A DNA stretch of 64,000 nt from Bacteroidia bacterium. GTDB taxonomy: Bacteria > Bacteroidota > Bacteroidia > Flavobacteriales > Flavobacteriaceae. Of this stretch, positions 38,520 through 59,082 are shown one piece after another. Under the pieces are notes generated by a model. That model was not told where the DNA came from. It saw only the letters and a list, made by a program, of their open reading frames with translations, and did not search any database. The position numbers and the translations under genes were made by a program. Location: assembly GCA_030428705.1 (NCBI GenBank), contig JAUIDI010000002.1, positions 682,001 through 746,000 of the forward strand, written 5' to 3'. The first letter of the stretch is position 1, and the number at the start of each line of letters is the position of its first letter.

Positions 38520-39908
38520 ATGCAAAATATTCAAGAATACATTGCCCAAAACAAAGAACGTTTTATCGATGAACTTTTCGAATTGCTTAAAATTCCTTCT
38601 ATCAGTGCCGACTCAGCATTTTCGCAAGATGTCATAAATACGGCCGAAGCGGTCAGACTATCTTTGATGGAGGCTGGTTGTGATATCGTGGAAATCTGTG
38701 AAACCGATGGATACCCGATCGTATATGGCGAAAAAACAATTGACAAAAATTTACCAACGGTTCTGGTCTATGGCCACTACGATGTGCAACCCCCGGATCC
38801 ATTGGATTTATGGGACTCCCCGCCATTCGAACCCACCATCAAGAAAATACCCCAACATCCTGATGGTGCCATTTTTGCCCGAGGTGCTTGTGATGACAAA
38901 GGACAATTCTATATGCATGTCAAGGCAGTGGAATTTATGATCAAAACAAATCAACTACCCTGTAATGTGAAATTCATGATCGAAGGGGAAGAAGAGGTTG
39001 GTAGTAAAAGTCTTTCTGCATTTGTTGCCGACAATCAAGAAAAACTGGCCAATGGTATCATTTTGATCTCGGATACGGGAATGATCGCGAACGACGTGCC
39101 CTCTATCACGACCGGCCTTCGAGGCCTCAGCTATGTGGAAGTCGAGGTGACCGGCCCGAACCGAGATCTACATTCGGGACTCTATGGCGGAGCAGTGGCC
39201 AATCCGATAAATGTTCTGACCAAGATGATCGCGTCGCTCCATGACGAAAACAACCACATCACCATTCCCGGTTTTTATGATAAGGTCGAAGAATTAACCA
39301 ATGAAGAAAGGGTCGAAATGGCCAAGGCACCCTTTAATCTTGAAGATTACCAAAAAGCGTTGGAAATCGAATCCGTTTACGGCGAAAAAGGATATACCAC
39401 CAATGAAAGGAATTCCATTAGGCCTACCTTGGATGTCAACGGTATCTGGGGCGGTTATATCGGCGAGGGCGCCAAAACGGTTATCGCCAGCAAAGCCTAC
39501 GCGAAAATCTCCATGCGATTGGTCCCCCACCAAGACTGGAAGGAGATTACCCGATTGTTTACCGAACATTTTGAAAGTATCACCCCAAAAGGAGTTAAGG
39601 TAAAGGTTACACCGCATCATGGTGGCCAAGGGTATGTTACCCCTATTGACACCGTGGGTTATCGGGCAGCTTCAAAAGCGTATGAGACCGCCTTTGGAAA
39701 AAAACCGATACCACAACGTAGCGGAGGAAGTATTCCCATCGTTTCCCTCTTCGAAAAAGAATTGGGCAGTAAAACCATTTTAATGGGCTTCGGTCTCGAC
39801 AGTGACGCCATACATTCGCCCAACGAACATTTTGGGATTTGGAATTACCTAAAAGGCATTGAAACTATTCCCTATTTTTATCAATATTTTACGGAAATGA
39901 GTTCTTGA
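38520..39908 (+). CDS. M20-family dipeptidase
   Basis: VLVYGHYDVQPPDPLDLW, GACDDKGQFYMHVKAVE, EGEEEVGS. Confidence 0.94.
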   Translation: MQNIQEYIAQNKERFIDELFELLKIPSISADSAFSQDVINTAEAVRLSLMEAGCDIVEICETDGYPIVYGEKTIDKNLPTVLVYGHYDVQPPDPLDLWDSPPFEPTIKKIPQHPDGAIFARGACDDKGQFYMHVKAVEFMIKTNQLPCNVKFMIEGEEEVGSKSLSAFVADNQEKLANGIILISDTGMIANDVPSITTGLRGLSYVEVEVTGPNRDLHSGLYGGAVANPINVLTKMIASLHDENNHITIPGFYDKVEELTNEERVEMAKAPFNLEDYQKALEIESVYGEKGYTTNERNSIRPTLDVNGIWGGYIGEGAKTVIASKAYAKISMRLVPHQDWKEITRLFTEHFESITPKGVKVKVTPHHGGQGYVTPIDTVGYRAASKAYETAFGKKPIPQRSGGSIPIVSLFEKELGSKTILMGFGLDSDAIHSPNEHFGIWNYLKGIETIPYFYQYFTEMSS

Positions 39909-40021
39909 TGTTGGATGTTGGATGTTGGATGTTGGATGTTGGATGTTGGATGTTGGATGTTGGATGTTGGATGTTGGATGTTGGATGTTGGATGTTGGAT
40001 GTTGGATGTTGGATGTTGGAT
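39907..40021. repeat. Tandem heptamer array (GATGTTG)n
   Basis: ~16.4 perfect copies. Confidence 0.98.
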
Positions 40022-40029
40022 AAGGAAAC

Positions 40030-40090
40030 AACTATTAACTATTAACTATTAACTATTAACTATTAACTATTAACTATTAACTATTAACTA
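40030..40090. repeat. Tandem heptamer array (AACTATT)n
   Basis: ~8.7 perfect copies. Confidence 0.98.
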
Positions 40091-40098
40091 CCAAAAAC

Positions 40099-40677
40099 TT
40101 ATAACTTTTTCACATATTTGGTAATGATCACAATATGTTGACCGTCTACCTTGCCCTCAATATATTCAGCATTTTCGCGATCTAAAGAAATCCTTCTGAC
40201 GGCCGTGCCTTGCTTTGCCACCATGCTCGAACCTTTGACCTTTAGATCCTTGACCAGCACAACGCTATCTCCATTTTCAAGGATTGCACCATTGACATCC
40301 CTATGTATTATTTTTTCGCTTTCCGACAATCCTTCACCAGTCGCCTTCGCCCAAAGCAGTGTTTCATCATCCAAATAAAGCATATCCAATAAATCCTGTG
40401 GCCATCCTTCGGCTTTTAGGCGTGTAAGCATTCGCCATGCCACTACCTTTACGGCATCGTGTTCGCTCCACATACTGTCGTTCAAACAACGCCAATGGTT
40501 GGGATCCATCTTACTGGCATCCTCAATTTGACCGATGCAGGTGCTACAAGCCAACAGACTTCCGTCAAGACCTCCGACCGATATTGGTGGAACTTCATAA
40601 ATGCTCAACCTATCCGTCGAGCTACATAATTCGCATGTTGAACTACTTCGCTCTTGTAAGTCTTCGAGTAAACCCAT
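40099..40677 (-). CDS. PhnA-domain protein
   Basis: ERSSSTCELCSSTDRLSIYEV; C-terminal NGDSVVLVKDLKVKGSSMVAKQGTAVRRI. Confidence 0.88.
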   Translation of the reverse strand: MGLLEDLQERSSSTCELCSSTDRLSIYEVPPISVGGLDGSLLACSTCIGQIEDASKMDPNHWRCLNDSMWSEHDAVKVVAWRMLTRLKAEGWPQDLLDMLYLDDETLLWAKATGEGLSESEKIIHRDVNGAILENGDSVVLVKDLKVKGSSMVAKQGTAVRRISLDRENAEYIEGKVDGQHIVIITKYVKKL

Positions 40678-56784: not shown

Positions 56785-56809
56785 GTTCTCGACTGCGCTC
56801 GAACAGACA
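56785..56809. repeat. REP-like element copy, intergenic
   Basis: GTTCTCGACTGCGCTCGAACAGACA, identical over 25 nt to 57672-57696. Confidence 0.85.
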
Positions 56810-56839: not shown

Positions 56840-57991
56840 TTACTTCTTTTCCAAAAAAAATAAATCCGCCGCAATGCCATCGACCAAAAACTTTCCCCTT
56901 TTGGTGGCTTTGAGAATATCATCGTCAAACATCAGCAAATCTTGACTTACATATTCCTGACATTGCATTAGTAGGTAATCCAAGTATTCTGCCCCTAAGG
57001 ACGATGCTATTTTTTTCAACGATACGCCCCAGATCGTTCGGAGGCCGGTCATGATATATTCGTTATACCGATCGGTCGTGGTCAATATTTCGCTTTCCAT
57101 AGGAAGCTTTCCTTCGTTGATGGCCTTTAGATATTTTGAATTGTTCCTCACGTTCCAACTGCGTCGATCGCCATCAAAAGAATGTGCCGAAGGGCCTATA
57201 CCCAAATATTTTCTTCCTTGCCAATAGGCCGAATTGTTTTTTGAGAAAAAGCCTTCCCTTCCAAAATTCGAAATTTCATAATTGATAAAACCATTGGCTT
57301 CCAAGACATCGACCAGCATATAAAATTGCCGCCCTGCATCTTCCTCGTCTACGTCGGCCACTTCTCCCTTTTTGATCATATATGCTAGGGCCGTCCTTGG
57401 TTCAACGGTCAGTGCATAACTCGAAATATGCGGAATGCCAAACGACAGGGCTTTCTCTATGTTTTGCATCCAGCGTTTATCTTCCATTCCGGGAATACCA
57501 TAGATCAAATCGATTGAAATATTTTCAAACTTTTTAGAGGCTTCCGAAATGCAATTTTCAGCTTCTTGGGCGTTATGTGCCCGGTTCATCAATTTTAAAT
57601 CGTCATCGAAAAAAGATTGTATGCCGATGCTGAGACGGTTGATCCCGCTGTCAATATAGTCCGCAAAGATAGTTCTCGACTGCGCTCGAACAGACACCAA
57701 GTCATCGGGATTGGCCTCTAAGGTGATTTCAGGGTTTTCGGAGACTTGATAATTATCGTAAACCGCATTGATCAATCGATCGATTTCTTGGGATGTCAGC
57801 ACCGAGGGCGTGCCTCCCCCAAAATAAATGGTTTCGACGATTTCACTTCCAAATTCATTCTTTCGCAGTTCCAGTTCTTTTTGCAAAGCCAAGACCATCG
57901 CATCCTTTTTTGCCATAGAAACAGAAAAATGGAAATCGCAGTAATGACAAGCTTGTTTACAAAAAGGAATGTGGACGTAGATGCCGGACAT
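56840..57991 (-). CDS. hemW: HemW-like radical SAM protein carrying an in-frame repeat insertion
   Basis: MSGIYVHIPFCKQACHYCDFHF; YFGGGTPSVL; INRLSIGIQSF. Confidence 0.92.
   Translation of the reverse strand: MSGIYVHIPFCKQACHYCDFHFSVSMAKKDAMVLALQKELELRKNEFGSEIVETIYFGGGTPSVLTSQEIDRLINAVYDNYQVSENPEITLEANPDDLVSVRAQSRTIFADYIDSGINRLSIGIQSFFDDDLKLMNRAHNAQEAENCISEASKKFENISIDLIYGIPGMEDKRWMQNIEKALSFGIPHISSYALTVEPRTALAYMIKKGEVADVDEEDAGRQFYMLVDVLEANGFINYEISNFGREGFFSKNNSAYWQGRKYLGIGPSAHSFDGDRRSWNVRNNSKYLKAINEGKLPMESEILTTTDRYNEYIMTGLRTIWGVSLKKIASSLGAEYLDYLLMQCQEYVSQDLLMFDDDILKATKRGKFLVDGIAADLFFLEKK
57672..57696. repeat. REP-like element copy inside the hemW coding sequence
   Basis: Identical 25-nt GTTCTCGACTGCGCTCGAACAGACA; encodes ...SVRAQSRT... 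in hemW frame. Confidence 0.85.
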
Positions 57992-57997
57992 TTGTTA

Positions 57998-58032
57998 GTA
58001 ATAAGTGAACAGTTAAGAGTGAACAGTTTAGG
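57998..58032. repeat. Degenerate heptamer array downstream of the four-helix-bundle gene
   Basis: GTAATAA GTGAACA GTTAAGA GTGAACA GTTTAGG. Confidence 0.8.
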
Positions 58033-58405
58033 AGTAATCCTTTTTGGAACCAAATTTCTCTGGATGGTTCATCATAAAATAAATCAACTTACCTATTTCA
58101 TTACTCTTCACTGTTAAATCATATAGCGTATCCTTATCGATATAACCACATGAGAAGGAAAACGCTAGCCATTCCTGGGTTTCCAAATTTTCTGCATCGG
58201 AGTCTGTGAGCTTGCTAATAAAATGCTTTTGATAGCGTCTTTTCGCATAAGCCTCTGCAATATTAATGGCAGTACTTCTCGACGAACGCCGTACCTGATC
58301 TGTCAAAGAATACGTTTTGTTTTTGGGGAATGATTTGCTTTTTTCATAAATCTCCATAGCAAGTGCAAATGCCTTTTTATAAGCCAAGAGATCTTTAAAA
58401 GTCAT
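58028..58405 (-). CDS. Four-helix-bundle protein (S23 / 23S rRNA intervening-sequence protein family)
   Basis: AYKKAFALAMEIYEKSKSFPKNKTYSLTDQVRRSSRSTAINIAEAYAKRRYQKHFISKLTDSDAENLETQEWL. Confidence 0.92.
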   Translation of the reverse strand: MTFKDLLAYKKAFALAMEIYEKSKSFPKNKTYSLTDQVRRSSRSTAINIAEAYAKRRYQKHFISKLTDSDAENLETQEWLAFSFSCGYIDKDTLYDLTVKSNEIGKLIYFMMNHPEKFGSKKDYS

Positions 58406-58422
58406 AACAAATCTTATTGATT

Positions 58423-58478
58423 ACTGCTTACTGTTCACTGCCCACTGCCTACTGCTCACCGCCTACTGTTTACTGATC
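58423..58478. repeat. Degenerate heptamer array upstream of the four-helix-bundle gene
   Basis: ACTGCTT ACTGTTC ACTGCCC ACTGCCT ACTGCTC ACCGCCT ACTGTTT ACTGATC. Confidence 0.88.
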
Positions 58479-59073
58479 ACTTTTTCACCCTCGATCCATT
58501 ATTCCTCACGAAAGCCTCCCACCCTGAATAGGACTTGCCTACCTCGATACGCCCCTCATTATAGAAATGGCACACGGCCGCTGCTAACCCGTCGGTACTA
58601 TCAAGATTTTTGGGCAAAGTTTTTAATTGCAGGGTACTCTGCAACATTTTTGCGACCTGCTCTTTGCTGGCATTTCCGTTGCCCGTAATGGCCATCTTTA
58701 TTTTCTTGGGGAGGTATTCCGTAATAGGAATCTGTCGCGATAATCCGGCGGCCATGGCAACACCTTGTGCACGGCCCAACTTTAACATCGATTGTACGTT
58801 CTTGCTATAAAAAGGTGCCTCAATGGCCATTTCATCGGGGTGATAGGTGTCAATGAGTTGCAACGTGCGCTCAAAAATGAGTTTGAGTTTGGTATAAGGG
58901 TCTTTGTACTTACTTAACTGCAGCTCGTTCATCTGAACGAATTCCATCTTCTTGTCAACGACCTTGATAATACCGAACCCCATAATCGTGGTTCCCGGGT
59001 CGATACCGAGTATAATCTTTTCCTTGGACAATTTTTGCGTTTTGTTTTTAATTATTCCACAGCACTTCGACAA
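58477..59073 (-). CDS. ruvC: Holliday junction endodeoxyribonuclease RuvC (start uncertain; TTG 59041 also possible)
   Basis: IILGIDPGTTIMGFGII; AIEAPFYSKNVQSMLKLGRAQGVAMAAG. Confidence 0.93.
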   Translation of the reverse strand: MSKCCGIIKNKTQKLSKEKIILGIDPGTTIMGFGIIKVVDKKMEFVQMNELQLSKYKDPYTKLKLIFERTLQLIDTYHPDEMAIEAPFYSKNVQSMLKLGRAQGVAMAAGLSRQIPITEYLPKKIKMAITGNGNASKEQVAKMLQSTLQLKTLPKNLDSTDGLAAAVCHFYNEGRIEVGKSYSGWEAFVRNNGSRVKK

Positions 59074-59082
59074 GCTCAGTGC
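59062..59082. repeat. Palindromic repeat-like element at the ruvC 5' end
   Basis: GCACTTCGACAAGCTCAGTGC with GCACT/AGTGC ends. Confidence 0.5.

Follow-up and report, generated by a model that had tools for sequence, protein, structure and literature searches.

Recurrent REP-like palindromic inserts in one linker loop of HemW across the Flavobacteriaceae

The hemW gene and its in-frame repeat

The window analysed here is a stretch of 64,000 nucleotides covering positions 682,001 to 746,000 on the forward strand of contig JAUIDI010000002.1, from the assembly GCA_030428705.1 of a Bacteroidia bacterium of the family Flavobacteriaceae (4.16 Mb in 17 contigs). It contains a gene for the heme chaperone HemW, the product of which scores 279.6 bits with the NCBIfam equivalog model TIGR00539 against a cut-off of 205.4, and the predicted fold of which matches HemN from Escherichia coli (1olt) with an E-value of 2.1e-28. 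The features of this locus are as follows:

56840..57991, minus strand: hemW, radical SAM heme chaperone of 383 amino acids (ORF translation and TIGR00539)
57672..57696, minus strand: REP-like palindrome with a TGTC tag, within hemW; coding-strand sequence TGTCTGTTCGAGCGCAGTCGAGAAC (exact repeat)
57671..57697, minus strand: REP-coded part of the linker, VSVRAQSRT, 27 nt, HemW residues 99-107 (translation; missing from the 12-residue linkers of relatives)
57644..57670, minus strand: IFADYIDSG, residues 108-116, helix segment of the linker that is exchanged along with the insert (linker comparison)
56785..56809, minus strand: identical REP unit 30 nt 3' of the hemW stop codon, in the same orientation as the hemW copy (exact repeat)

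The 25-mer GTTCTCGACTGCGCTCGAACAGACA is present exactly at 57672-57696, within hemW, and at 56785-56809, and no third match was found in the window at up to three mismatches, with shuffled sequences expected to give 0. A first-pass annotation of this DNA had reported the identity between the intergenic and hemW copies, which we confirm, and had given the position in hemW as 57672-57697, of which the start is right and the end one base too long. On the coding strand the unit has the form TGTCTGTTC-GAGCGCAGTCGA-GAAC, and the hemW copy carries the core GAGCGNAGTCGA with four complementary arm pairs, GTTC/GAAC. The region downstream of hemW in the closest relative, G002, is without the REP unit. 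Other features of the window include a small ORF at 58028-58480, resembling a four-helix bundle and situated between hemW and ruvC beside TACTG/CACTG-rich repeats, a different short palindrome at 59063-59081, CACTTCGACAAGCTCAGTG, which lies just 5' of the ruvC-like gene and is present once in the window, and adjoining tandem arrays of the heptanucleotides GATGTTG and AACTATT at 39893-40099.

Within hemW the in-frame translation of the repeat is VSVRAQSR, and the surrounding stretch translates as EANPDDL-VSVRAQSRT-IFADYIDSG-INRLSIG, in agreement with the first-pass reading of a repeat-coded segment between EANPDDL and INRLSIG. The reading frame is open across the insert and the rest of the protein is conserved. 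The linker between NPDDL and INRLSIG measures 18 residues in this HemW and 12 residues in all 29 outgroup Bacteroidia compared, which argues that the insert is the derived state. That HemW proteins usually have a shorter and different linker, as the first-pass annotation stated, is borne out by these outgroups and by 136 of the 190 Flavobacteriaceae HemWs described below, which also have 12 residues. In the predicted structure (mean pLDDT 93.1) the insert block occupies the loop between the strand formed by residues 82-93 and the helix formed by residues 108-115; residues 101-110 reach a pLDDT of only 66, and the mapping proposed at first pass places the insert in that internal loop of the model where confidence is lowest. 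This loop comes directly after the strand with the conserved ExNP motif; in enzymes of the HemN type, loops that lead from strand to helix in this way lie on the side of the active site.

The HemW of G002 is 88% identical to that of the genome studied, and the DNA of the insert is identical in the two. Between these hemW genes the longest stretch without a difference is 65 nt and coincides with the insert and the helix. A second relative, G001, belongs to the same genus as our genome and has a hemW without the insert. The relatives do not, therefore, all share these residues in diverged DNA, the observation named at the outset as counting against an inserted repeat.

A dispersed family of TGTC-tagged palindromes

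In the genome the 25-mer has nine sites at up to three mismatches, and a 14-base core, TCGAGCGNAGTCGA, has 15 exact copies, against 0 for the reversed control pattern; the genome search suggested at first pass thus did find the repeat elsewhere. Thirteen related genomes have 10-143 cores each, with the control pattern occurring 0 or 1 times; the count of 143 belongs to the genome of L011. Most copies in our genome, that in hemW included, have TGTC ahead of the stem, and four intergenic loci consist of inverted pairs with the tags outside; such dimers are also frequent in the related genomes. The arms vary between copies yet stay complementary (GGTC/GACC, CCTC/GAGG, GTTC/GAAC, CATC/GATG and CTTC/GAAG), a covariation that points to a hairpin as the form being selected or copied. 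As a DNA hairpin the single hemW unit folds no better than its shuffles (z 0.67), the best folds having 4-7 pairs and a 6-nt loop, and no CCA-like tail was seen in the copies of this genome. The repeat is a TGTC-tagged, REP-like palindrome unit of 25-27 nt that is dispersed through flavobacterial genomes.

The repeat is also translated in other genes. In the genome studied (G000) gltX (L256:1501-3042) contains an in-frame REP dimer, HSVDTERSRSDAGGLDSARPDSS, which is also present in G002 and absent in G001. The same gltX loop, the length of which varies across the family, contains a core in L316 and, in L263, a core with one mismatch. Another in-frame unit, read as CQVERSRD, is found in a LACTB-like serine hydrolase of our genome (L092), at a gap in the alignment with LACTB structures.

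GTAG REPs and REPINs are dispersed, tagged hairpins that occur in inverted pairs and are mobilised by RAYT (TnpAREP). The flavobacterial repeat resembles them in being a dispersed, tagged hairpin found in inverted pairs, but its tag is TGTC, which sets it apart from that class. A search for Y1 transposases (PF01797) in 26 relatives and 14 genomes, REP-rich ones among them, found no REP core within 1.5 kb of any of the 22 Y1_Tnp loci examined, and no Y1_Tnp gene was found in the genome studied. On the basis of these loci we rejected a RAYT/Y1 transposase as the mobiliser. The missing linkage fits the CGTC-tagged REPs, for which no association with a transposase gene was found either (PMC3733652, Table 1).

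CGTC-tagged REPs are palindromes of 20-40 nt with a CGTC tag that is often TGTC; head-to-head dimers with the tags outside predominate, intragenic units have been reported, and the Bacteroidetes are among the phyla listed (PMC3733652). The flavobacterial repeat is like them in its TGTC tag, complementary arms, multi-copy dispersal, tag-outside dimers and intragenic units, as well as in its lack of Y1_Tnp linkage. Their definition, however, includes a stem of 8-9 bp, a loop of 4-5 nt, a CCA-like tail and A-T pairs first (PMC3733652), and the flavobacterial unit, with its core GAGCGNAGTCGA, departs from this in stem, loop and tail. It is for this reason best called a CGTC/TGTC-type REP-like element, short of a proven member of the superfamily.

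Longer linkers across the Flavobacteriaceae

We compared 190 HemW sequences from the Flavobacteriaceae (188 of them different), a sample biased toward similarity to the query. A longer linker, of 15-34 residues, was observed at exactly this place in 53 of them; that of L154 was counted as 18 residues once its motif match had been corrected. The exact REP core is present in 23 of the 53, and in 32 if up to two mismatches are allowed, compared with none of 137 short linkers. The insert site is thus recurrent across the family and is not an event private to our genome.

The inserts differ in how the repeat is read and arranged. The REPs in HemW are translated in three frames (RAQSR, ERSR and SAVE, for example) and from both strands. 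The hemW linkers of L013, L016 and L044 each contain two REP units, and in L130 a second core is nested within the first, giving VSVRA-GHIERSRDA-RTIF. The three frames, the dimers and the nested REP demand several separate insertions of the repeat. In L019 the REP is interrupted by an unrelated palindrome-like insert, the status of which as a repeat is weak, with just two occurrences at 16 exact bases in that genome. Linkers of 18 residues without a recognisable repeat, which we take as decayed, are present in L162, L169 and L150.

In Flavobacterium solisilvae (L084) the 18-residue linker, SPSLSFRRNLFEELKAIG, is apparently coded by a different palindrome, TTTGTCATTCCGTAGGAATC. We also considered whether the TTGTC of the Leu-Ser codons serves as an insertion target, and judged this too weak; of 136 genes that lack the insert, 47 have a TGTC at this position.

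Helix exchange, recombination and the origin of the inserts

A HemW tree from which the linker was left out needs 36 changes of the insert state, and well-supported branches force 14 or more of them; a single origin is rejected by the AU test (p 1.4e-48, in a 46-gene subset with 20 insert-bearing genes held together). An ancient insert that was inherited vertically and lost many times would accommodate the decayed linkers of L162, L169 and L150, and also a GTTC-type insert common to distant genera. Its losses would, however, need to recreate one and the same I..L..SP linker of 12 residues over and over, the outgroups uniformly have 12 residues and the single clade is rejected, making this history extremely improbable in our view.

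The insert is accompanied by a change in the helix that follows. The last residue is glycine in all 53 longer linkers, with tyrosine at -5 in 47 and phenylalanine at -8 in 44. Linkers of 12 residues mostly read I..L..SP, the short linkers mostly having leucine at -5 and proline, lysine or arginine at -1, and the SP-type helix is retained in none of the insert-bearing genes. The insert and the final glycine change together, with about 13 of 14 independent pairs in agreement (p 2.4e-4). The change exceeds a plain insertion, since the following helix has been exchanged too.

Several close pairs show local divergent tracts that are centred on the linker or end at it. Between L012 and L046 the differences amount to 13/72 around the linker versus 10/363 elsewhere (p 7e-6), and the linker has changed throughout its length, in contrast to the first 80 codons, which are almost the same in both. 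L021 diverges at the linker from each of five Flavobacterium sisters (p 7e-5 to 5e-10), and directly after it regains 96% identity with insert-free sisters. A similar tract separates L037 from L153 (p 1e-6), and to the left of the linker L021 and L011 have bases in common with L013. Variation in the left segment is also seen among insert-free controls, where two of five pairs give p < 0.1. The switching of the helix with the insert, together with the short divergent tracts, indicates that at least some gains occurred by recombination. When all 35 testable insert-bearing genes are taken together, divergence beside the linker is not raised in general (p 0.4), and the conflict between sliding-window trees dips only mildly near it (29-36 versus 34-43 changes); recombination is accordingly evident for some cases only, and older gains may have come by either recombination or insertion.

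Insertion alone, in which a REP transposed into the same tolerant loop in each lineage and the helix then became adjusted to the longer loop in every case (with F at -8, Y at -5 and G at -1), is a real possibility, if on the unlikely side. The three frames, different arms and dimers do need several separate events, the divergence around the linker shows no general excess, and the helices of L044 and L084 are partly intermediate (I/F..L..G). The uniform final glycine, the prevalence of F and Y and the lack of any insert-bearing SP-type helix speak against repeated adaptation, as do the wholly changed linker beside near-identical codons in L012/L046 and the L013 bases to the left of the linker in L021 and L011.

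The recurrence of REP-like inserts in this HemW loop is probably due to recombination as well as fresh and nested insertion, with subsequent decay. The REP unit is read into a flexible loop between the EANPDD strand and the next helix, where extra residues may be tolerated; HemW would then keep its function, and the repeat would remain in the gene as a near-neutral passenger. By one route, perhaps the main one, homologous recombination in short, gene-conversion-like tracts would swap the 12-residue linker for the REP-bearing linker of another lineage; as the whole linker is replaced, the following helix would switch with the insert. By the other, fresh or nested insertion of REP units, presumably still mobile, would give the three frames, the dimers and the REP within a REP. 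Later decay of the REP would leave a longer linker of unrelated sequence.

It is also conceivable that the loop itself is selected, with REP-coded residues altering HemW function or mRNA behaviour, and that a favoured insert allele spreads between species. The repeated gain, in 53 of 190 genes, and the coincidence of the 65-nt identical run in our genome and G002 with exactly the insert and helix would fit such a role. The sequence is nevertheless unconstrained, occurring in all frames, at 15-34 residues and in decayed forms, and lies at the point of lowest internal confidence in the HemW model, and we regard selection of this kind as improbable. A more tentative and rather unlikely reading is that the linker of HemW acts as a trans-species cassette open to exchange, in which a plain 12-residue form and a form with REP and FxxYxxxG helix circulate family-wide by short-tract recombination. 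The translated REP might then act as homology that promotes exchange, or as a source of new copies, such as the unit just 3' of hemW.

Like the Rickettsia palindromic elements, with which the first-pass annotation had compared it, the flavobacterial repeat is a palindrome lying in frame within a housekeeping protein, for which insert-free orthologues exist (G001 and most relatives). The likeness holds for a dispersed, in-frame palindrome. It does not extend to the longer RPE-1 type, the unit being a short, TGTC-tagged, REP-like one; RPE-4 and RPE-6 correspond to CGTC REPs, and RPE-1 is longer (as cited in PMC3733652). The flavobacterial case further differs in its phylum, in the element, in the unit of only 25-27 nt and in recurrent gain at one site. 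Different REPs have been described at about the same recB site in two Xanthomonas species (PMC3733652); unlike the CGTC-tagged REPs in general, those described here have hit one HemW loop family-wide, and the next helix is exchanged along with them. Our literature search found no report of translated REPs in Flavobacteriaceae, nor the flavobacterial core in a relevant context, its text matches falling in studies unrelated by title. Translated palindromes are already known, from Rickettsia and as intragenic REPs, and it is the recurrent hotspot in the HemW loop, with exchange of the helix block, that appears to be new.

The HemW linker thus offers a natural, replicated record of mobile palindromes turning into protein sequence, in one loop of one protein and within one family. 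It includes inserts that are fresh, nested or decayed, alongside insert-free sisters, and would allow one to test by which means REPs get into genes and pass from one species to another, and at what cost to the protein.
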